A model generated the notes under the pieces. It saw only the letters and a program-made list of their open reading frames with translations. It had not been told where the DNA came from and made no database searches. Source: Phaeocystidibacter luteus (GTDB lineage: Bacteria > Bacteroidota > Bacteroidia > Flavobacteriales > Schleiferiaceae). From it: a stretch of DNA of 64,000 nt. Made by a program: the position numbers and the translations under genes. Positions 630 through 63,200 of the stretch are shown here, one piece after another (position 1 is the first letter of the stretch; the number at the start of each line of letters is the position of its first letter). The stretch covers positions 1-64,000 of the forward strand of contig NZ_WBVO01000014.1 in assembly GCF_008933115.1 (NCBI RefSeq), written 5' to 3'.

Positions 630-3239
630 ATGAACTACCTCCACGAAGAGCTCACACAGCTTCTAAAGGAAGACGAAGGCATATTTCAGTTTATCCAAGA
701 ATCTGCTTTAGATGGACTTTGGTACTGGGATTTGTCCAGTCCCGAAGATGAATGGATGAGCGAGAATTTCTGGACCACCTTGGGGTATGATCCATCTACA
801 AAACCACACAAGGCAAGCGCCTGGCAAGATTTGATCAATCCTGATGACGGTGAGAGCGCATTGAAACTAGCTCAGCAGCATTTTGCAGATCCTTCTGTAC
901 CCTATGATCAAGTGGTACGGTATAAACATGCCAACGGGTCTACTGTATGGATTCGTTGCCGTGGAATGGCCATTCGTGATGAAAAGGGTGCGCCAATTCG
1001 CATGCTTGGAGCTCACACAGATATCACAGAGCAGAAGGAACAAGAGTTGAAACTCGATAGAGAGTTGCAATGGTTCACAAATATCTTGGAGTCTAGTTCA
1101 ATCGCTACCTGGCGACTGAGGTTGGATACCGGTGAGGTGCATGTCAACTCGGTTTGGGAGAAGTCTTTCGGACTGTACATCCCCGAAGATGGCGTTATCA
1201 ATATCTCTGACTGGAAAGCGCTTGTTCATGAAGAAGATGTGGCTCTCTTTGACGATTGCATAGCGTCATTCAAAGAGGGAAAATCTACTACGGTTGAGTT
1301 GAGGTTTGAAATCAATGGTGACATACATTGGATCAAATCGCAAGGTGAGCCCTATTTTGAGCAAGGCGAGGATTGGGTGCTCGGTATCTGTCTAGATGTC
1401 TCGCTCGAAAAATCCAAGGAGATTGAATCTCAACAAAGTAACGAACTGTATTATGCCTTTATCTCGCATGCTCCGAGCGCGATTGCGATGTTCGACAATG
1501 ACATGCATTACATCGCTGCGTCGGATCAATGGATGAGGGACTATGGTCTTGTTGGAAGAAATATCATCGGTCAGTCACACTACGATGTATTCCCTGAAAT
1601 TGGCGACGATTGGAAGGAGATTCACAAGAAGTGTCTGAATGGACACATCGATAAAGTCGACGAGGCTCCATTCGAACGTGCAGATGGGGCGTTGCAATGG
1701 CTCAGATGGGAGGTAGGTCCCTGGCGCAGAGGGGGTGTTATCGGCGGACTCATCATGTACACTGAGGATATCACCAAGAGAAAGAACGAAGAAGCGTTGC
1801 TCCTTCAGTATAAGAACCTACTTGAGAGTTCAAATAAAGTCGCTAGAATTGGAACCTGGGAGGTGAATCTCGAAGATATGACCTCTACGTGGAGTGACAC
1901 CACCAAAGAGATTCACGGAGTTCCAAGTGATTATCAATCGAACGTTGAAACAGGTATAAATTTCTACAAAGAAGGCGAAAGTCGAGATAGAATAACCGAG
2001 GTTTTTAACGCAGCGGTTTCGAAAGGAGAGAGGTTCGATGAAGAGTTGATCATCGTTGATGCAAAAGGTGAGGAGAGATGGATACGTACCGTCGGGATTC
2101 CAGAAATGGCAGAAGGACAGTGTGTGAGGGTTTATGGCATTTTTCAAGATATCGACAAGCGAAAAAGAGCGGCTGAAGTGCTTGCCGCTCAGGAGGAGCT
2201 CTTTAGAAATACGTTTGAATATGCCTCCATTGGAATGGCTCTCGTTGGGCTCGACGGTACTTGGATGCGTGTGAATAAAAGAGTAGCCGAATTCCTGGGG
2301 TATTCTCAAGAGGAGCTTCTGGAATTGACGTTTCAAGAGATCACTCATGTGGAAGACTTAGGGAGTGATCTTGAGCTTCTTGGACAATTGGTTGATGGGA
2401 AGATTGAGCACTATCAGCTCGAAAAAAGGTATATACATAAAGACGGCCACCTTGTTTGGGGCTTGCTGGCTGTTTCATTGGTTAAAAATGAAGAAGGCGA
2501 ACCGCTTCACTTCATCTCACAGATCACAGATATTACAGCGCAGAAGGAGCTTTTAAACGTGACTTCCAATCAGAATGAGCGATTGATGAATTTCGCGCAC
2601 ATCGTTTCGCACAACCTACGATCGCACTCTGGGAACCTTTCGATGCTCTTGGATCTGTTTGTTCAAGATGAACCGGCGTTTGTGGACAGTCCATACTACT
2701 CGATGTTTAAAAGTGCATCCGAGAATCTATCGGAGACCATAGCGAACCTCAACGAGGTGGTAAGTATGCAAACCACCTCACAAGAAGCGCTTCAATCGAA
2801 AGAGCTTTATGGGTTTGTCGTTTCCGCGCTTAAGAATGTGGAGGGGTTGCTGACTGACGTCACTGCCGAAGTTGACGTTCAGATTGATAAGAGCTTGGAA
2901 GTGCTGGTTATCCCCGCATATCTCGATAGTATATTGAACAATCTGATTACGAATGCCATAAAGTACCGTTCGAAAGAAAGAAGATTAAAGCTGACATTCT
3001 CAGTGACTACAGGTGATGAGGATGTTCGGCTGGCGGTTGCGGATAATGGATTGGGAATCGACCTAGAGCTCCATGGGCACAAGATGTTTGGGATGTATAA
3101 AACCTTCCACAAGAATCCCGAGGCGCGCGGAATTGGGTTGTTTATATCAAAGAATCAAATTGAAACTATGGGTGGCGATATTGACGTTGAAAGCGAAGTT
3201 GGAAAAGGCACCACATTTACACTTACATTGAAGAGATGA
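630..3239 (+). CDS. Multi-PAS sensor histidine kinase
   Basis: This 869-aa protein has no signal peptide or evident membrane segment, so it is probably a cytoplasmic sensor. Five PAS/PAC repeats run from about residue 18 to 642, each ending in a PAC-type DIT or similar (for example GAHTDITEQKE near 125-135 and ISQITDITAQKE near 640). The dimerisation/phosphoacceptor region follows, with the predicted phospho-histidine at H661 in FAHIVSHNLRSH. The ATPase domain shows the N box (NNLITNAIKYRS), G1 box (VADNGLGID), F box (KMFGMYKTFH) and G2 box (ARGIGLFI). The family autophosphorylates on His and passes phosphate to a response regulator; the next gene, overlapping by 4 nt (ATGA), encodes one. The ligand or cofactor sensed by the PAS domains cannot be told from sequence. 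Confidence 0.93.
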   Translation: MNYLHEELTQLLKEDEGIFQFIQESALDGLWYWDLSSPEDEWMSENFWTTLGYDPSTKPHKASAWQDLINPDDGESALKLAQQHFADPSVPYDQVVRYKHANGSTVWIRCRGMAIRDEKGAPIRMLGAHTDITEQKEQELKLDRELQWFTNILESSSIATWRLRLDTGEVHVNSVWEKSFGLYIPEDGVINISDWKALVHEEDVALFDDCIASFKEGKSTTVELRFEINGDIHWIKSQGEPYFEQGEDWVLGICLDVSLEKSKEIESQQSNELYYAFISHAPSAIAMFDNDMHYIAASDQWMRDYGLVGRNIIGQSHYDVFPEIGDDWKEIHKKCLNGHIDKVDEAPFERADGALQWLRWEVGPWRRGGVIGGLIMYTEDITKRKNEEALLLQYKNLLESSNKVARIGTWEVNLEDMTSTWSDTTKEIHGVPSDYQSNVETGINFYKEGESRDRITEVFNAAVSKGERFDEELIIVDAKGEERWIRTVGIPEMAEGQCVRVYGIFQDIDKRKRAAEVLAAQEELFRNTFEYASIGMALVGLDGTWMRVNKRVAEFLGYSQEELLELTFQEITHVEDLGSDLELLGQLVDGKIEHYQLEKRYIHKDGHLVWGLLAVSLVKNEEGEPLHFISQITDITAQKELLNVTSNQNERLMNFAHIVSHNLRSHSGNLSMLLDLFVQDEPAFVDSPYYSMFKSASENLSETIANLNEVVSMQTTSQEALQSKELYGFVVSALKNVEGLLTDVTAEVDVQIDKSLEVLVIPAYLDSILNNLITNAIKYRSKERRLKLTFSVTTGDEDVRLAVADNGLGIDLELHGHKMFGMYKTFHKNPEARGIGLFISKNQIETMGGDIDVESEVGKGTTFTLTLKR

Positions 3240-8082: not shown

Positions 8083-8754
8083 ATGAATTGCTTTAAATTG
8101 ACAGCAATAATTGCTGTTTGCTCTCCTTTGGCTGCTTTAGCAGGAAATCCATATGCTGTGACTGGTAACACACAAATAGCCAACTATTCTGATGGCTCGT
8201 CGTGCAGATATTGGAATGTCCGCGTTTTTAATGACAATGGAACGCCTAATGATCCTTCTGATGACATTTTACTCGCCTGTGGCACGGTTTGGGAAGCTGG
8301 GTGCCCTCCATCAACTGGGGTTTCGCTAGTTGACACCGATGAGCTTTCTGATGGGCAGTTCTATGGAGGAATAATTGTCGAGGCCGATGAAGAGAATGGA
8401 ATTTTCGAAGTTTTGGTGACTAAGATTGGCTCTGGCTATGCAGAAGGAATGACTACTGCAACAATGGCTCAATGTGGATCAAGTAAGCATGAAACGGATA
8501 ACGCCGTGGAGTCAGAGACGCTAGAATGTGAGGCGCTATACAACCCCGACGGTCAAACCTACATCCGAGTAAACAAGAACTCTACTTGTGAATTTGTGAA
8601 CACAGCAGGACAAGTTGTTGGAAGTCTCGAATTGAACTCAGGAATCAATGATTTGTCATCAATTGGCTTGACGAAAGGCGTCTATATTGCAAGAGTATCT
8701 ACTCTCAATGAAGAATTTCCAGAGGAATTGGTTATCAAAGTTTCAATTCGCTAA
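8083..8754 (+). CDS. Secreted protein with T9SS C-terminal sorting domain
   Basis: I prefer the ATG at 8083 (MNCFKLTAIIAV) because it starts a normal signal peptide ending near LAALAG; an upstream in-frame TTG/ATG at 8044/8047 would add an unneeded 13 residues. The 223-aa product has an acidic, cysteine-containing domain with the phrase DNGTPNDPSDDILLACGT. A C-terminal module of about 75 residues follows, with the T9SS type A pattern GQVVGSLEL ... LTKGVYIARVS ... VIKVSIR. The protein should be exported by Sec and then moved across the outer membrane by T9SS. The next gene encodes a shorter paralogue sharing DNGTP..DD. Function unknown. Confidence 0.8.
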   Translation: MNCFKLTAIIAVCSPLAALAGNPYAVTGNTQIANYSDGSSCRYWNVRVFNDNGTPNDPSDDILLACGTVWEAGCPPSTGVSLVDTDELSDGQFYGGIIVEADEENGIFEVLVTKIGSGYAEGMTTATMAQCGSSKHETDNAVESETLECEALYNPDGQTYIRVNKNSTCEFVNTAGQVVGSLELNSGINDLSSIGLTKGVYIARVSTLNEEFPEELVIKVSIR

Positions 8755-11899: not shown

Positions 11900-12047
11900 C
11901 CCATTGGTAAGTCCGTGTGTGTGTTGTGATATCGTTCTCTTGCCCGCTGCATGCAAGAATCCAATGTGTGTGGATCGAGTACTCTTGCAAAACTCAAGCT
12001 AAGAAGCCAACAGACTTTCGTCTCCAGCGAAGTGTCAAAGGAGGATA

Positions 12048-12460
12048 GGATTCCGCTCGTGCCTCGCGGCATCCTTGGGTTGGTATTTTGCCCGCACAAA
12101 ACTCAAAAGCCGACTCTGTCTGCGATGGGGTTGTCGGTTCAGTTATGGTTTCGGTTTACTACAGGATTCCGCTCGTACCTCGCGGCATCCTTGGGTTGGT
12201 TTTTTAGCCCACACAAAACTGAAAAGCCGGCTCTGTCTGCGATGGGCTGTCGGTTCAGTTATGGTTTCGGTTGTATACAGGATTCCGCTCGTACCTCGCG
12301 GCATCCTTGGGTTGGTTTTTTGCCCACACGAAACTCAAAAGCCGGCTCTGTCTTCGATGGGGCTGTCGGTTCAGTTATGGTTTCGGTTGTATACAGGATT
12401 CCGCTCGTGCCTCGCGGCATCCTTGGGTTGGTCTTATACCCACACAAAACTCAAAAGCCA
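12048..12460. repeat. Tandem repeat, 116-bp unit, about 3.6 copies
   Basis: Units begin with GGATTCCGCTCGT at 12048, 12164, 12280 and 12396, an exact 116-bp period, with a few substitutions between copies; the last copy breaks off near 12460. Each unit contains CACAAAACTCAAAAGCC or a one-base variant, the same string as in the inverted repeat at 10453. Because 116 is not a multiple of three and all frames shift between units, coding function is unlikely. Confidence 0.9.
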
Positions 12461-36987: not shown

Positions 36988-36993
36988 ATTCTT

Positions 36994-37128
36994 GGACTGA
37001 TAGACTGATAGACTGCAGGACCGATAGACTGCAGGACCGATTGACTGCAGGACCGATTGACTCATGGTCTCATGGACTGTCAGACTTATGGACTGATAGA
37101 CCTCTGGACTAGTGGGCCTCTGGACCTA
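36994..37128. repeat. Degenerate GGACTGATAGACT / CAGGACCGAT repeats
   Basis: Short units repeat irregularly: GACTGATAGACTGATAGACTG, then GCAGGACCGAT three times, then GGACTGTCAGACTTATGGACTG. The spacing drifts between 7 and 15 bp. Confidence 0.8.
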
Positions 37129-48982: not shown

Positions 48983-49219
48983 CACAAAATCTGCCTTTTT
49001 CACTTTCCAAACGGAGAACATTAACGGTGTTCGTGTCCCCTTTTCGTCCCCCTGCTTCGTACTACTATTACCTTGGGTTGGAAGGTGATCTCATTCCCAG
49101 AGATTACAATCATCTACAGAGAACTGCCAGATCGTTCGCTGGCTAAGATTCCAACCTGGGCGGTTGCAAGGAAGAGGAGGTTTAGGCCTTCTCTTTTTTT
49201 TTTGATTCATGGGATGAAT

Positions 49220-49316
49220 GGAGGTTCCGACTGGAAGGAGGAATCCCGAGAGGCGAAGCTGATTCGGGAGTTGGAGATTTAGAGGGTTAGAGGGTTCGAG
49301 GGTTGGACAGCAGAGT
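49220..49316 (+). repeat. Repeat family A, single copy (about 97 bp)
   Basis: GGAGGTTCCGACTGGAAGGA at 49220 continues through ATCCCGAGAGGCGAAGC and GGGAGTTGGAGATTTAGAGG to about 49316. Its reverse complement occurs as tandem 101-bp units at 59502 and 104-bp units at 62933. It lies at the far end of the composite element at 49.2-49.8 kb. Confidence 0.85.
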
Positions 49317-49328
49317 TATGTCCAAAGG

Positions 49329-49512
49329 GCCACGGACTGAAGTCCCGTGGCATTTGAAGTTCATCCCCGAAAGAGAAGGCAATGCAACTGGCTCAGGCAC
49401 CACGGGCTAAAGCCACGTGGTAGTTGGAGAAGCCTTTTTGGCACCACGGGCTAAAGCCCTGTGGTAATTGTAGCAAGCTTTGGTCGTACCACGCGCTGAA
49501 GCCCTGTGGTAC
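49329..49512. repeat. Repeat family B: palindromes CCACGGGCTAAAGCC...GTGG, 44-bp spaced
   Basis: Palindromes of about 24 bp (CCACGGGCTAAAGCCacGTGG and variants) begin at 49329, 49399, 49443 and 49487; the last three are spaced exactly 44 bp apart. Each can form a stable hairpin on either strand. No ORF is supported in this spacer. Confidence 0.85.
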
Positions 49513-49558
49513 TTGGATTCAAGTCGAGCCCGAGGCTATAGCTTAAGTAGAATGGATA

Positions 49559-49780
49559 GGCCTATCTTGCCGAGGAACGAGGCCTTATTGACCGCCAGAG
49601 GCGTCAATCCTTGCGGCCGAAGGACGCCTTGCGCATGCCGAAGGCAGGCGCCTTATCCTCCGCCGAAGGGCGGAGCGATTCCTTTCGACCGCCGCAGGCG
49701 TCGATCTTTCGCCTCCGCGACAGCGGAGCGCGATCCTTATCCGCCGGCAGGCGGATCCTTTTCCGCCCCTAGGCGGAACC
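49559..49780 (-). repeat. Palindrome-module array (composite element, copy 1)
   Basis: Read on the minus strand, about nine modules, each an imperfect palindrome of 12-24 bp, are separated by AAGG or AAAGG: two TCCGCC..GGCGGA units, GCTCCGCTGTCGCGGAGGC, GACGCCTGCGGCGGTC, TCCGCCCTTCGGCGGA, TGCCTTCGGCA, GCGTCCTTCGGCCGC, TGACGCC..GGCGGTCA, then the constant terminal module GGCCTCGTTCCTCGGCAAGA ending TAGGCC (49559-49584). The head abuts the ccmB stop codon with 2 bp between. Short ORFs here are read-through of repeats. Confidence 0.88.
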
Positions 49781-49782
49781 AA

Positions 49783-50439
49783 TCACTCCCTCCACATATA
49801 TGGATACAACACCACCGACAACACCCCAGTAAGGATATTCAGCAGCAAGAGCACTCCAAAGAAACTTAAGCTTTCTTCAAAAGGAGTTCCCAATGCAGCC
49901 TTCTTAGAGCCCGCAATGAGCGTTGCTGCTAATGGCAAGAGGAGCGGGATGCTCAAAATCGCCATTAGGGTTGTGTTGTTGTTGGTTTTTGAGGCTATGG
50001 CTGACATTAATGTGAGCGTCGTGGAGAATCCTACGGCGCCGAGTAGTACGAAAAGCAGCATCTGACCATCATCTGCGATGGGGTCGCCTAGGAGAAGCCT
50101 AAACAATCCAAATGTGAAAAGCGAGATGATCAGCATTTGTACAACGTTGTACAACAGTTTGGAAAGTATCACAGCATTAGGGCGAACGAGCTGGGCGTAG
50201 TACCAAAACCTATGCTGAGATTCAGCCGAAAAAGAACGGGTAGAGGAGGTTATTGCCGCGAAAATGGTAATGATCCAGTAGAGGGCTACCCAGGTCTGAC
50301 GATCATTAATGTCCCTGAAAATAAGATAGGCAATGTATGTGGTGCTCACTACGTAGAGCAAAGTGGCGAAAATCGCATATCGCTGACGAAAGTCTAGCGT
50401 CAGGTCCTTTTTAATGAGTGCAACAACCTCTTTCCACAT
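49783..50439 (-). CDS. ccmB: Haem exporter permease CcmB
   Basis: The 218-aa protein has six predicted membrane helices and the CcmB layout: a basic amphipathic N-terminus (VALIKKDLTLDFRQRYAIF), then FAAITSSTRSFSAESQHRFWYYAQLVRPNAVILSKLLYN, the conserved segment of ABC-2-type CcmB permeases. CcmB works with the ATPase CcmA and CcmC in haem-loaded CcmE release. No ccmA is present nearby; upstream lies an unrelated divergent gene. A near-consensus -7 box TATCTTCG lies just upstream on the minus strand. Downstream, the composite repeat element intervenes before ccmC, which is normally adjacent. Confidence 0.9.
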   Translation of the reverse strand: MWKEVVALIKKDLTLDFRQRYAIFATLLYVVSTTYIAYLIFRDINDRQTWVALYWIITIFAAITSSTRSFSAESQHRFWYYAQLVRPNAVILSKLLYNVVQMLIISLFTFGLFRLLLGDPIADDGQMLLFVLLGAVGFSTTLTLMSAIASKTNNNTTLMAILSIPLLLPLAATLIAGSKKAALGTPFEESLSFFGVLLLLNILTGVLSVVLYPYMWRE

Positions 50440-58408: not shown

Positions 58409-59107
58409 TTAAAAGATAAAGGGATATCCCTTTAGCGTCATCTTGCGGTACTTCGGCTCATCAAACATGTACAGCTGCGCTGGCTTCTTGTTTTCAGAAG
58501 TTGGACTCGTCTTCTTTTCTAGATCAATAAGCATATCTGAGGATAGAATCTTACGTCTGAAATTCCGTTTGTCAAACGATTTGCCCAGGGCACATTCGTA
58601 CAACACCTGTAGTTGGTTTAGAGTGAATTCTTTGGGCAGTAGACTGAATCCAATAGGGCGACGCTTCACTCGTCGCTTTAATCGCTCCTTGGCGAAATCA
58701 AGAATATCGTCGTGATCATACGCCAACGGGGGAGTGTCGTTCATTCCATGCCATGAATATCCCGACTTCTTCAAATGATTCTTCAGCTTGTTGTCCAACT
58801 TCGCCAAGCCATAGAACGCGATGTTCACCACCCTTCCTTCTGGATTGCGGTAGAGTTTCGCAAAGGCGTTGAGTTGTTCGAGGTACCAATCACTCACTCC
58901 GGTAATTTTTGTGATGAGTTCGCGTGCGGTTTGCTCCACATCATGGTTTGCCTTTACAATTACGCTGGGTAGTATGTGCGCTCCTTGGAAAGGCGGGTTT
59001 TGCTTTTCGCTTAACAACACATTTAAATTCTGGCCGTCGAAACCAAAGATTACAACACTGGTAGCTAGGGCGGCATGGTAGTCGGACTGTTGGATATCTA
59101 CGCGCAT
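58409..59107 (-). CDS. NUDIX-like winged-helix regulator (NrtR-like)
   Basis: The ATG at 59107 (MRVDIQQSDYHAALATSVV) is the true start; a longer frame to 59326 is only read-through of the palindrome array. The 232-aa protein has an N-terminal NUDIX-fold domain (VIFGFDGQNLNVLLSEKQNPPFQGAHILPSV) in which the Nudix box is degenerate (TARELITKITGV lacks the second Glu pair), and a C-terminal winged-helix domain from about 140 (RPIGFSLLPKEFTLNQLQVLYE). This is the NrtR type, in which the dead NUDIX domain binds a nucleotide or sugar effector such as ADP-ribose and the C-terminus binds DNA. The regulated genes are unknown. A perfect TAnnTTTG box lies 27 bp upstream. Confidence 0.85.
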   Translation of the reverse strand: MRVDIQQSDYHAALATSVVIFGFDGQNLNVLLSEKQNPPFQGAHILPSVIVKANHDVEQTARELITKITGVSDWYLEQLNAFAKLYRNPEGRVVNIAFYGLAKLDNKLKNHLKKSGYSWHGMNDTPPLAYDHDDILDFAKERLKRRVKRRPIGFSLLPKEFTLNQLQVLYECALGKSFDKRNFRRKILSSDMLIDLEKKTSPTSENKKPAQLYMFDEPKYRKMTLKGYPFIF

Positions 59108-59133
59108 GGCATTGGGGTGTGTGGTGTTAGTGT

Positions 59134-59141
59134 CAAAGTTA
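59134..59141 (-). promoter_or_regulatory. -7 box of the NUDIX-like regulator
   Basis: The minus strand reads TAACTTTG, an exact TAnnTTTG, and lies between the palindrome array and the start codon. It supports the start at 59107. Any -33 box would fall at the edge of the repeat array. Confidence 0.6.
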
Positions 59142-59150
59142 CACAAAGTA

Positions 59151-59319
59151 TTCCGCCTGGCGGCGGAAAAGGATCCGCCTACCGGCGGAAAGGATGCCTC
59201 CCTGTGGTCGGCAAAGGGATCCGCCTCCCGGCGGATAAGGATCGCGCTCCGCTGTCGCGGAGGCGAAAGGTCGACGCCTGCGGCGGTCGATAAGGCCTCG
59301 TTCCTCGGCAAGATGGGCC
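59151..59319 (+). repeat. Palindrome-module array (composite element, copy 2)
   Basis: Modules in order: TCCGCCTGGCGGCGGA, TCCGCCTACCGGCGGA, TGCCTCCCTGTGGTCGGCA, TCCGCCTCCCGGCGGA, GCTCCGCTGTCGCGGAGGC, GACGCCTGCGGCGGTC, then the constant module GGCCTCGTTCCTCGGCAAGA...GGCC at 59294-59319. Most junctions carry AAGG. Relative to the copy at 61.1 kb the four modules before the terminal one are missing. Confidence 0.88.
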
Positions 59320-59366
59320 TGACCATTAGAATTAAGCTTTAGCCTCGGGTTTAACTTGAATTCAAG

Positions 59367-59480
59367 TACCACGGGGCTTTAGCCCGTGGTACCAAAAAGA
59401 CTTCCTCCGAATGCTACATGGCTTTAGCCGGTGGTATCGGTAAGGCCCATCCAATTGCCACCGGGCTTTAGCCCGTGGCC
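59367..59480. repeat. Repeat family B palindromes, 44-46 bp spaced
   Basis: TACCACGGGGCTTTAGCCC at 59367, CTACATGGCTTTAGCCGG at 59414 and GCCACCGGGCTTTAGCCCG at 59457 are three imperfect palindromes ending GTGGTA or GTGGCC. A further degenerate one (CCACGAGGCTATAGCCTGAGG) is near 59821. Each could form a hairpin. Confidence 0.85.
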
Positions 59481-59501
59481 CATTAAGCTTAGCTCCGCTG
59501 T

Positions 59502-59760
59502 CCAACTCTCGAATCGGCTTCACCTCTCGGGATTCCTCCTTCCAGTCGGAACCTCCAACCGTCCAACCCTCTAACCCTCCAACCCTCTAACCCTCTAAAT
59601 CTCCAACTCCCGAATCGGCTTCGCCTCTCGGGATTCCTCCTTCCAGTCGGAACCTCCAACCGTCCAACCCTCTAACCCTCCAACCCTCTAACCCTCTAAA
59701 TCTCCAACTCCCGAATCAGCTTCGCCTCTCGGGATTCCTCCTTTCAGTCGGAACCTCCAA
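59502..59760 (-). repeat. Repeat family A: three tandem units, 101-bp period
   Basis: Units starting CCAACTC(C)CGAATC at 59502, 59603 and 59704 repeat every 101 bp, with CTAACCCTCCAACCCTCTAA fill between them; the third ends near 59760. This is the reverse complement of the block at 49220. The rest of the spacer up to 59945 shows no gene and contains a short CTCAAGC tandem (59910-59930). Confidence 0.85.
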
Positions 59761-59945
59761 AGAAAGCACAGGCTAAAGTCCAGAGCCAATTGACCTACAG
59801 GATAGAACTGACATCCGATTACCACGAGGCTATAGCCTGAGGATTCCAACATGTCAAAATCACAACTTTACTGCGTAAGTCAGAGCCTTCGTTTCTTCGC
59901 CTCAAGCCTCAAGCCTCAAGCCTCAAGCCTGTCGTCTGACGCTTC

Positions 59946-60015: not shown

Positions 60016-60993
60016 TTAGTTGCTAGCGGCAGCTACTTCTTCCAATTCGTATTCTGAAAGGTAGCGCTCAGCTTCAAGCGCAGCCATACAACCGGTGCCG
60101 GCTGCGGTAACAGCCTGACGATAGATTTTGTCTTGGGCATCGCCAGAAGCAAATACACCCGGTTTTACCGTGGTTGTTGTGCCTGGCTTTGTTTTCAAGT
60201 ATCCTACTTCGTCCATCTCAAGCTGACCCTTGAAGATGTCGGTGTTTGGTTTGTGACCAATAGCTACGAAGAAACCTGTAGCTGGGATAACTTGCTCTTC
60301 GCCGGTTTCACGATTACGCACTCGCGCACCTTCAACAACGTTTTCACCCAAAACTTCAACGGTCTCGGTGTTCCACATCACTTCGATGTTCGGGTTGTTA
60401 AATACGCGGTGTTGCATCGCTTTAGAGGCGCGAAGTTCATCGCGACGAACAAGCATGGTTACTTTAGGGCAAAGCTTAGCAAGGTATGTAGCTTCCTCAG
60501 CGGCAGTGTCACCACCACCTACGATGATTACTTCCTGACCTTTGTAGAAGAAACCGTCACATACCGCACAACCAGAAACTCCGTGTCCAGATAAACGCTT
60601 CTCACTTTCAAGTCCGAGGTACTTAGCAGATGCACCCGTAGAAATAATCACAGAACGAGCCTGAATTTTCTTCGTTTGATCTACGGTTAGGGTATGGTAA
60701 CCGCCTGGAGTGTCATTGAACTCAACCTCGGTAACGAGTCCGAAGCGCACGTCGGTTCCAAAACGTTCCGCTTGCTTTTTGAGGTCTTCCATCATGGCCG
60801 GACCATCAATTCCTTCTGGATAGCCAGGGAAGTTTTCTACCTCCGTAGTGGTAGTGAGCTGTCCACCTGGCTCCATTCCTGTGTACATAATCGGCTTAAG
60901 GTCTGCTCGCGCCGCGTAAATAGCTGCGGTATATCCAGCAGGACCACTACCAATAATCACACATTCATGTCTTTCGATATTATTGTCGCTCAT
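60016..60993 (-). CDS. trxB: Thioredoxin reductase
   Basis: The 325-aa flavoenzyme has an FAD-binding GSGPAGYTAAIYAAR (15-29), the redox-active CAVC at 142-145 (SGCAVCDGFF), the NADPH-binding GGGDTAAEEA near 156-165 and a C-terminal FAD motif (GVFASGDAQD). It moves electrons from NADPH to thioredoxins; the WCAPC protein encoded at 57961 is a likely partner. Length and motifs are those of bacterial low-molecular-weight TrxB. It has its own promoter and terminator, with a repeat element upstream. Confidence 0.95.
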   Translation of the reverse strand: MSDNNIERHECVIIGSGPAGYTAAIYAARADLKPIMYTGMEPGGQLTTTTEVENFPGYPEGIDGPAMMEDLKKQAERFGTDVRFGLVTEVEFNDTPGGYHTLTVDQTKKIQARSVIISTGASAKYLGLESEKRLSGHGVSGCAVCDGFFYKGQEVIIVGGGDTAAEEATYLAKLCPKVTMLVRRDELRASKAMQHRVFNNPNIEVMWNTETVEVLGENVVEGARVRNRETGEEQVIPATGFFVAIGHKPNTDIFKGQLEMDEVGYLKTKPGTTTTVKPGVFASGDAQDKIYRQAVTAAGTGCMAALEAERYLSEYELEEVAAASN

Positions 60994-61084: not shown

Positions 61085-61279
61085 GGGGATCCGCCTGGCG
61101 GCAGAAAGGATTCCGCCATTCGGCGGAAAAGGATCGACGCCTTCGGCGGTCGAAAGGAATCGCTCCGCCCTTCGGCGGAGGATAAGGCGCCTGCCTTCGG
61201 CACGCGCAAGGCGTCCTTCGGCCGCAAGGAATGACGCCTTCGGCGGTCAATAAGGCCTCGTTCCTCGGCAAGATAGGCC
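61085..61279 (+). repeat. Palindrome-module array (composite element, copy 3)
   Basis: Modules in order: TCCGCCTGGCGGCAGA, TCCGCCATTCGGCGGA, GACGCCTTCGGCGGTC, TCCGCCCTTCGGCGGA, TGCCTTCGGCA, GCGTCCTTCGGCCGC, TGACGCCTTCGGCGGTCA, then the constant terminal module at 61254-61279. AAGG or AAAGG separates most modules. Short ORFs on both strands are read-through and not genes. Confidence 0.88.
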
Positions 61280-61326
61280 TAACCATTCGACATAAGCTTT
61301 AGCCTCGGGTTCAACTTGAATCCAAG

Positions 61327-61443
61327 TACCACAGGGCTTTAGCCCGTGGTACCAAAAAGACTTCCTCCAACTGCCACAGGGCTTTAGCCCGTGGTACGAA
61401 AAAAGCTTCCTCAAAATGCCTCCGGGACTTCAGCCCGAGATAT
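61327..61443. repeat. Repeat family B palindromes, about 45-bp spaced
   Basis: TACCACAGGGCTTTAGCCC at 61327, GCCACAGGGCTTTAGCCC near 61373 and CCTCCGGGACTTCAGCCCG near 61418. A short piece of family A (TTCCTCCCTTCAGTCGGAAC) follows at 61452. No gene is supported between 61033 and 61610. Confidence 0.85.
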
Positions 61444-61610
61444 CGAAAAGGATTCCTCCCTTCAGTCGGAACCTTCAACGCTCTCAAGACTTCAGACTTA
61501 GGACCCAGCTTTCGTTTCTTCGCCTCATGCCTCATGCCTCATGCCTCACGCCTTTCGCCTCTCGCCTTTCTCTCCATTTCTTTCCCTACCTTTATCTAAA
61601 TCTCGCTCTC

Positions 61611-62510
61611 ATGAAGAATCTACTATTCGCTTTTACTGTTCTCTGTAGTTTTAATGCCTTTGCCCAAGGAGATTCGTCTTCCGTGGGGTTGACCTTAAAA
61701 ATGGCCACTGAAGAAATGATGCCGCCGTGGCAATGGGGCATGTGGAGCACGTTTACAGTTGATCGTGATACCACTATTGGAGGTCAAGTTTACAATGTGG
61801 TCGAGTACGACTCACTTGCCGAGTTCATGTTTGTCACAGATAGCCGCGGTTTCGGAACGGAGGGGACATTTTTCATGCGAAAAGATGCGAACGGAGTACT
61901 TTATGCACGATTTGATAGCGCCATGTGTAACGGAGCTGGAGTTTCATATAATTCTGATATCAAAGTCCTCGATTATTCCATGCAAGTAGGAGATACGATT
62001 CAGTATCGCAATCTCATATCTACCGTTACGGCAGTTGATACTTTTTATCGAAATGGACTTCCTTACCGAATCATTGAACTCGACAATGGTTTGGAAAGGT
62101 GGTATGAAGGATTTGGCAGCAATCGTACTGTACTCCGAAAATGGCTCGTGGAATTTGAACACAGAAGTCGTATTTACTGCGTTACGGATGTCAATGGAAT
62201 TGTATTAGAACCATGGAAGTATTATGACTCCGTTTATACATGTGATTACAAGCTTAGCGAAACGGAAGTGGAATCACCTGTCGAGCCCAAGCTATTAGTC
62301 CAGAACGGCAACCTCATTCTCTCCGGATATTCAAAGGATGTATCCAAGGTCGTAATGTTCAACTCAGCTGGGCAAAAAGTTCAAGAATGGGATTTCCATG
62401 GCCATCAGAACATCGAGGATTTCCCAATGACTCTCAAAGATACCCACGCACCTGGACTTTACGTGGTTTATGTGTCTGGTTTGAAGAGTTTTAAGGTTTG
62501 GGTTGAGTAG
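61611..62510 (+). CDS. Secreted T9SS protein
   Basis: The ATG at 61611 (MKNLLFAFTVLCSFNAFAQ) starts a signal peptide; an in-frame ATG at 61416 lies in the repeat element. The 299-aa product has a central domain (MMPPWQWGMWSTFTVDRDT, DNGLERWYEGFGSN, CVTDVNGIVLEPWKYYD) of a type I have seen in Bacteroidota exported proteins without known function. A T9SS sorting domain follows from about 225 (PKLLVQNGNLILSGYS ... APGLYVVYVSG ... FKVWVE). The gene is flanked on both sides by composite repeat elements, the downstream one beginning at the base after its stop codon. Confidence 0.82.
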   Translation: MKNLLFAFTVLCSFNAFAQGDSSSVGLTLKMATEEMMPPWQWGMWSTFTVDRDTTIGGQVYNVVEYDSLAEFMFVTDSRGFGTEGTFFMRKDANGVLYARFDSAMCNGAGVSYNSDIKVLDYSMQVGDTIQYRNLISTVTAVDTFYRNGLPYRIIELDNGLERWYEGFGSNRTVLRKWLVEFEHRSRIYCVTDVNGIVLEPWKYYDSVYTCDYKLSETEVESPVEPKLLVQNGNLILSGYSKDVSKVVMFNSAGQKVQEWDFHGHQNIEDFPMTLKDTHAPGLYVVYVSGLKSFKVWVE

Positions 62511-62703
62511 GGTCGCGCTCCGCTGTCGCGGAGGCGAAAGGTCAACGCCTGCGGCGGTCGAAAGGTGCCTCCCTACGGTCGGCAAAGGAATCCGCCTACC
62601 GGCCGATAAGGCGCCTGCCTTCGGCATGCGCAAGGCGTCCTTCGGCCGCAAGGATTGACGCCTTCGGCGGTCAATAAGGCCTCGTTCCTCGGCAAGATAG
62701 GCC
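62511..62703 (+). repeat. Palindrome-module array (composite element, copy 4)
   Basis: Modules in order: GCTCCGCTGTCGCGGAGGC, AACGCCTGCGGCGGTC, TGCCTCCCTACGGTCGGCA, TCCGCCTACCGGCCGA, TGCCTTCGGCA, GCGTCCTTCGGCCGC, TGACGCCTTCGGCGGTCA and the constant terminal module at 62678-62703. Begins at the first base after the stop codon of the preceding gene. Confidence 0.88.
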
Positions 62704-62749
62704 TGACCATTCGACATAAGCTATAGCCCCGGGTTCAACTTGAATCCAA

Positions 62750-62913
62750 GTACCACGTGGCTTTAGCCCGTGGTATCAGTAAGGGCCACTCCAAATGCCA
62801 CAGGGCTTTAGCCCGTGGTACGAAAAAAGTTTCCTCAAAATGCCTCCGGGACTTCAGCCCGAGGTATCGGTAAGAGCCACTCCAATTACCACAGAGCTTT
62901 AGCCCGTGGCCCA
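62750..62913. repeat. Repeat family B palindromes, about 45-bp spaced
   Basis: TACCACGTGGCTTTAGCCC near 62750, GCCACAGGGCTTTAGCCC near 62796, CCTCCGGGACTTCAGCCCG near 62842 and TACCACAGAGCTTTAGCCC near 62887. Confidence 0.85.
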
Positions 62914-62932
62914 TTAGTCTTAGCTCCGCCGT

Positions 62933-63200
62933 CCAACTCCCGAATCGGCTTCGCCTCTCGGGATTCCTCCTTGCAGTCGGAACCTCCAATTCTAACTCTG
63001 CCGTCCGACCCTCTAACCCTCCAACCCTCTAAATCTCCAACTCCCGAATCGGCTTCGCCTCTCGGGATTCCTCCTTCCAGTCGGAACCTCCAATTCTAGC
63101 TCTGCCGTCCAACCCTCTAACCCTCTAACCCTCTAAATCTCCAACTCCCGAATCGGCTCCGCCTCTCGGGATTCCTCCTTGCAGTCGGAACCTCCAAAAA
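62933..63200 (-). repeat. Repeat family A: three tandem units, 104-bp period
   Basis: Units starting CCAACTCCCGAATCGGCT at 62933, 63037 and 63141 repeat every 104 bp, the last ending near 63197. Each contains CGGGATTCCTCCTTxCAGTC and CTCTAACCCTCTAA-type fill. Same family as 49220 and 59502. Confidence 0.85.

Follow-up and report, generated by a model that had tools for sequence, protein, structure and literature searches.

The intergenic sequence at positions 49220-49780 of a 64,000-nucleotide stretch of the Phaeocystidibacter luteus genome (the window, in what follows) raises the question of what kind of element assembles several different small repeats into one ordered unit beside genes. 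A reading of the sequence alone had suggested a mobile or retro-replicated element, or else a processed 3'-end or attenuation element, an interpretation that is partly supported by the comparisons described here. The composite is a real element. The best explanation, with a probability of about 0.6, is a BIME-like mosaic of tagged palindromes, in which hairpin families A, B and P are placed around a core, and which would have spread as single-stranded DNA with a transposase, TnpA, acting in trans.

Composites of this type are intergenic, roughly 400 to 950 bases in length, and carry three small DNA hairpin families in one order. On the plus strand at 49220-49780, the A block is followed by B palindromes, linker L, module M and the P array; all of the modules that had been named are present, including the conserved linker placed after the terminal module. 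The sequence-only reading followed the minus strand and hence took the P end for the head of the unit, where the plus strand order begins with A; "P head" is retained here for that end. The features are:

49223..49308, plus strand: A block, with GGTTCCGACTGG..., a hairpin at 49244-49269, GTTGGA, and then a tract of GAGGGTTA-like octamers
49330..49509, plus strand: four B palindromes as direct repeats, at 49330-49350 (degenerate), 49400-49420, 49444-49464 and 49489-49509
49512..49556, plus strand: linker L
49559..49584, plus strand: module M, GGCCTATCTTGCCGAGGAACGAGGCC
49587..49780, plus strand: P array, hairpin cassettes with C(C)TT(T) separators
49783-50439, minus strand: ccmB (Pfam CcmB)
59149..59758, minus strand: second composite, with three A, three B, L, M and a short P array
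60016-60993: pyridine-nucleotide oxidoreductase gene, trxB-like
61085..61476, minus strand: third composite, its A block reduced to the first 24 nt
62511..63195, minus strand: fourth composite, its P head immediately after the ORF stop at 62510

The tetranucleotide TGGA occupies 49219-49222, just outside the A block. The B palindromes had been assigned a spacing of about 44-46 bp; the last three of the four at 49330-49509 do recur with a period of 44-45 bp. Family A had been recognized in three of the four window copies, and since the fourth, at 61.1 kb, keeps its first 24 bases, A is at least partly present in all four. Other repeats in the window include a 116-bp tandem array at 12047-12459 (3.6 copies, 93% matches), a tandem array at 36993-37110 with 8- and 16-bp periods, in style like the octamers beside A blocks, and heptamer arrays at 59899-59930 and 61520-61567, near two of the composites.

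When the 561 bp of 49220-49780 were used as a query, 108 matches were found in the organism's own 3.21-Mb genome, the best other place at E = 5.5e-114. The sequence CCACGGGCTAAAGCCC, allowing up to two mismatches, is matched 60 times across the genome, a number that takes in other palindrome families too, versus 0 for the reversed pattern; together with the query match, this excludes chance. Scanning for the modules in 28 own-genome loci retrieved around matches identified nine composites, four of them in the window. They lie at 49, 59, 61, 62 and 64 kb of contig C6, at 793, 819 and 833 kb of contig C1, and at 79 kb of contig C24 (C6_49 and so forth, below). The larger ordered unit that had been proposed recurs in all nine, with A, B, L, M, K and P in that order on one strand and with some modules missing or truncated: C1_819 has no recognizable L, C6_59 is without K, beta, gamma and delta, and C6_62 is without delta. 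The order M-alpha-beta-gamma is kept in eight of nine composites and delta comes next in seven, while the distal cassettes are variable. Core identity among seven of the nine is 0.88-0.95, and the cores of C6_59 and C1_819 have 0.60-0.77 identity to those of the other composites. All 28 B units detected in the composites point the same way as the composite that contains them. A, P and B-like hairpins are also present outside composites in the same genome.

By reading of the sequences, the P end is a cassette border in 9/9 composites. TGGA lies just outside the A end in five of them; the A end is not sharp in C6_64, C1_819, C1_833 and C24_79, because the bases outside it are still repeat-like. 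Target-site duplications, which had been proposed as a sign of insertion, were not seen on inspection of the nine flank pairs. MITEs have terminal inverted repeats and target-site duplications, neither of which is found here, and a MITE was rejected on the grounds that the two ends come from different repeat families and that no duplication was seen in those flank pairs. IS200/IS605 elements, similarly, are not known to produce a target duplication.

The hairpins themselves have been compared by loop, stem and tag. Loops of the form [GC]CTAAAG[GC] number 165 in 51 own-genome sequences, and in 60 of them the lower stem is four pairs or longer. These 60 TAAA hairpins, from loci that were chosen for repeats, comprise 25 distinct stem sequences and are not independent, because they belong to few families. 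Of the 60, 59 carry one extra base on their 3' side, and 24/60 have [TC]GGA no more than 10 nt from the 3' foot (background, 6.5%). B is a member of this bulged-hairpin superfamily. For A, a pattern fixing both arms showed GNA directly before the 3' arm in 45 of 47 copies. GNA loops are stable in DNA; no paper on that stability was found in the portion of the open-access literature consulted.

P is a string of hairpins, with stems that are partly unrelated, between constant TCCTTT tags. The stems CATTTGACTTCAGTCAAATG and TACAGCCGATAGGCTGTA, for example, are unrelated to each other. With RNA energies, 58 of 80 unique P cassettes fold better than 95% of shuffles, and the pattern TCCTTTN{10,26}TCCTTT occurs 68 times in the genome versus 15 for its reversed form. 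With DNA energies, 30/63 unique TCCTTT-bounded segments here fold better than 95% of shuffles versus 1/55 elsewhere, the 55 comparison segments coming from a three-separator search of other genomes; by a cruder hairpin score, with flanking T residues trimmed, 16/63 segments reach p <= 0.05. The three-TCCTTT-separator pattern appears in 16 of 59 other family genomes at or near the reversed-control rate, and the strings found there do not fold. In the genome contig database, the 21-nt M core has 0 matches and the tagged P hairpin matches one Acidobacteria contig, which served only as a control locus.

Arrays resembling P, with no A, B or L alongside, occur at five places (C1:575, C2:120, C8:16, C24:1 and C25:131 kb), with an M-like match of 5 mismatches near C2:120. 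These free-standing arrays, and the folding of the TCCTTT-bounded segments, make it possible, at somewhat less than even odds, that P arrays form a hairpin-cassette system of their own, served by its own enzyme, and that the composite is a join of this system with a REP-like element. No second enzyme has been identified, and the conservation of M-alpha-beta-gamma order indicates that the parts of the composite now travel together. Such a joining is compatible with the BIME-like mosaic. Two P-type arrangements in the genome, one of them at C1:575 in this list, have particular features. Near-identical arrays at 20-155 and 8208-8343 of locus L187 (contig C9) are inverted and about 8.2 kb apart, and could bound a mobile segment. 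At C1:575 kb (L126, 960-1790), AAAGGAT-separated hairpins with unrelated stems lie beside an array with a period of about 112 bp.

The P head had been described as usually abutting a gene. In four of the nine composites it follows an ORF stop by 0-6 bp, and in the other five it does not (ORFs are mechanical calls, with uncertain start sites). The four distances are 2 bp in C6_49, where the array stops at 49780 short of the ccmB stop codon, 0 bp in C6_62, 6 bp in C6_64 and 0 bp in C1_793, the first two as originally given. Also as described, the P head of the second composite adjoins conserved sequence on the promoter side of the NrtR-like gene 58409-59326 (Pfam NrtR_WHD); that of the third adjoins CTGTAAG, conserved upstream of the gene 60016-60993. 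At C1:827 and C1:830, two arrays of P only have their ends next to TATCTTCG and TACCTTTG, sequences that resemble the TAnnTTTG promoter box of Bacteroidota. The fixed polarity that had been claimed holds for the internal order of modules; relative to genes, no consistent orientation runs through the nine composites.

Selection of the composite at stop codons, as an element acting in attenuation, in mRNA stability or at 3' ends, would fit the four composites just past an ORF stop, and also the ccmB site, where the element precedes sequence that is conserved after the gene in congeners. It does not fit the remaining five, two of which adjoin sequence conserved upstream of the next gene, or the retention of these genes without the element in congeners, and there is no match to the element in Rfam at the gathering threshold. 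Because the P head follows an ORF stop in only 4/9, such a role is not general. The element is not tied to the 3' ends of genes, and selection at stop codons is a highly improbable explanation for it. A transcript-level 3' element as the general reading, and a known structured RNA, were rejected on the ORF-stop count and the Rfam result, respectively. The suggestion of retro-replication fared no better: a retro-element was rejected on 0 matches to the RVT_1 reverse transcriptase family in the organism's own genome, in a search that finds matches in 3/14 control genomes, although a reverse transcriptase from a different family, or one supplied from elsewhere, could still have taken part.

A DNA match to the element is present in its own genome only, with 0 of 59 other genomes searched (among them two congeners, G001 and G002, the nearest relatives with sequenced genomes) containing one. 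The clearest element-free counterpart is the ccmB-ccmC gap, which is 275 bp in G001 and 176 bp in G002 versus 795 bp here; the element sits between the ccmB stop and AACCGCCCA, the sequence that follows ccmB in the congeners. Both congeners (loci L079 and L081) are also without the element at the 59-kb site, upstream of the NrtR-like gene, and at the 61-kb site, upstream of the trxB-like gene, and the P heads at 59 and 61 kb adjoin sequence common to both; the G001 gap length at the trxB-like site is not comparable, because the gene beyond trxB differs there. For the 62-kb site, both neighbors are found in G002 only (L081), with about 37 bp between the ORFs and no element. At C1:833, the counterpart in G001 has a shorter gap, and in G002 a contig break interrupts the site. 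For the P-only arrays, the C1:827 gap is about 545 bp here versus about 70 bp between matched flanks in G001, and longer, about 1.9 kb, in G002; the counterpart of C1:830 is shorter in G002 and longer, about 3.5 kb, in G001 (the two longer gaps were read at their ends only). Flanks differ by about 30% from those of the congeners, and the site-by-site comparison covered five of the nine composites (C6_49, C6_59, C6_61, C6_62 and C1_833). With regard to other repeats at these sites, locus L143 of G002 (contig C54), the counterpart of C1:827, has octamer-like repeats of its own where the P array stands here, and CATCCGT-like heptamer repeats lie upstream of the trxB-like gene in G001 (L079, about 3040-3170).

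The proposal of a mobile-like element is borne out to the extent that the composite is dispersed, ordered, absent from two congeners and matched by element-free counterparts where gaps were compared. Its copies are nevertheless strongly clustered, five composites lying within 15.4 kb of C6, while a stretch of about 41 kb on C1 contains three more together with two P-only arrays. Local duplication or gene conversion would likewise produce such clustering. A single origin followed by ordinary recombination (duplication, gene conversion and array slippage), with no transposase, would draw on the same clustering, on the variable unit numbers and on the lack of a TnpA gene beside any composite. The copies lie between different genes, however, the congener gaps that were compared are without the element, and no copied flanking genes were noticed on casual inspection; ordinary recombination by itself is regarded as unlikely.

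Tyrosine transposase genes, which had been suggested as something to look for elsewhere in the genome, are present and IS200-like. Three Y1_Tnp genes of 143-155 codons (at loci L036, L037 and L038) were found, and none is at any of the nine composites. All three pass the NCBIfam IS200/IS605 cut-off, and have scores below the cut-off, or no match, for its REP-associated model. Each is flanked on both sides by palindrome-containing repeats. The palindromes flanking L037 and L038 have the bulged architecture of B, while those of L036 do not; the B palindrome itself is absent from these flanks, the best match having 5 mismatches in 21 (L037) and none lying within the limit in L036 and L038. The Y---Q--HH motif reads YIENQVKHH in L036 and YVKNQRNHH in L038, with L037 deviating (YVRDQWCK), and WQ.GY occurs in all three.

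By these motifs and a length of about 148 aa, the genes appear to fit TnpA subclass 1.2, L037 deviating; the subclass has Y---Q--HH and WQ motifs and about 150 aa in the portions of PMC6006769 that deal with it. There it is tabulated as "no" for REP and reported without REPs and without IS properties. In contrast to that table entry, in 21/37 distinct Y---Q--HH TnpA loci three or more identical 14-mers, in the same or inverted orientation, are common to both flanks, and 16/37 have no shared flank repeats; in controls, sharing was seen at 1/13 other loci and 5/88 window positions. The 37 loci are motif-verified, with flanks of at least 1 kb, and include 12 from the family search (the organism's own three among them) and 25 best order-wide homologues, so that they are best matches and not a random sample. 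The count takes in L092 (no shared repeats) and omits L161 (motif not readable), L089, L100, L101 and L159 (short flanks), and L171 and L175 (duplicates). A hairpin-like sequence, AGCTCCGTAGGAGCGA, is found in the shared flank repeat of L164, L165, L170, L176, L177, L183 and L184, all order-wide TnpA loci.

Resemblance to REP/BIME systems includes many intergenic copies of short imperfect palindromes and, with the bulged group, the stem bulge; with systems that have TnpAREP (RAYT), it extends to motif mosaics with a short tag at one end and to tyrosine transposase genes flanked by related palindromes. The differences are that neighboring REPs alternate in orientation, whereas B units here all point one way, and that the TnpA genes score as IS200/IS605. 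In a REPtron the same palindrome family flanks the transposase gene, whereas the palindromes at L037 and L038 are related to B in being bulged but are not B. Canonical REPs have GTAG or CGTC 5' of the hairpin; this tag was found in 1/60 hairpins, and a canonical GTAG/CGTC REP was rejected. GTAG-/CGTC-tagged palindromic repeats, in the sections of PMC3733652 that describe them, likewise combine a constant short tag with differing palindromes, whereas here the tag is TCCTTT, the arrays are head-to-tail and neighboring stems can be unrelated. IS200/IS605 ends, according to the pertinent sections of PMC8266576, are hairpins with nearby short tags, as here; TnpA lies inside those elements, whereas the composite carries no TnpA gene. 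The same sections state that TnpAREP enzymes require a neighboring tetranucleotide as well as features of the hairpin, either a bulge or a loop. Among the titles and abstract openings listed from the open-access literature, no description of the composite or of TCCTTT-tagged hairpin arrays was found.

The modules, their order, the restriction to this lineage and the hairpin architecture that B has in common with repeats at two TnpA genes are direct observations. The favored BIME-like mosaic would consist of the A, B and P hairpin families joined in one order around the core L-M, with the whole unit copied, presumably on single-stranded DNA, into gaps between genes in this lineage. An IS200-type TnpA similar to subclass 1.2, recognizing hairpin plus tag in trans, is probably the mover, a step held less firmly than the mosaic as a whole. 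The best candidate enzyme would be encoded by the gene at position 16766 of contig C1 (G000:C1:16766, G000 being this genome), whose flanking palindromes have a GGGCTAAAGCCC core and a TTGGAT tag in common with B. Arrays might then grow and shrink by recombination between units, and a position beside genes would reflect tolerance by the host and not a role in expression. Against this mosaic and its TnpA stands the location of every composite away from a TnpA gene; in addition, A and B have a tag other than that of P (TCCTTT), and a single enzyme may therefore not serve both ends of the composite. Under a further proposal, which is advanced only tentatively and has the odds clearly against it, the composite is a mobile mosaic whose hairpins would each be recognized through shape and a constant tag (TCCTTT in P hairpins, TTGGA in those of A and B), not through the sequence of the stem. 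Stems would then drift while staying paired, and TnpA proteins of subclass 1.2 would move the composite in trans as single-stranded DNA.

If true, this proposal would add to the known tagged palindromic repeats both a new tag and a head-to-tail arrangement of unrelated stems. It would also connect flanking repeats, in one bacterial order, with an orphan TnpA subclass that has been tabulated as REP-free. The role of TnpA subclass 1.2 would then become testable by simple in vitro cleavage assays.
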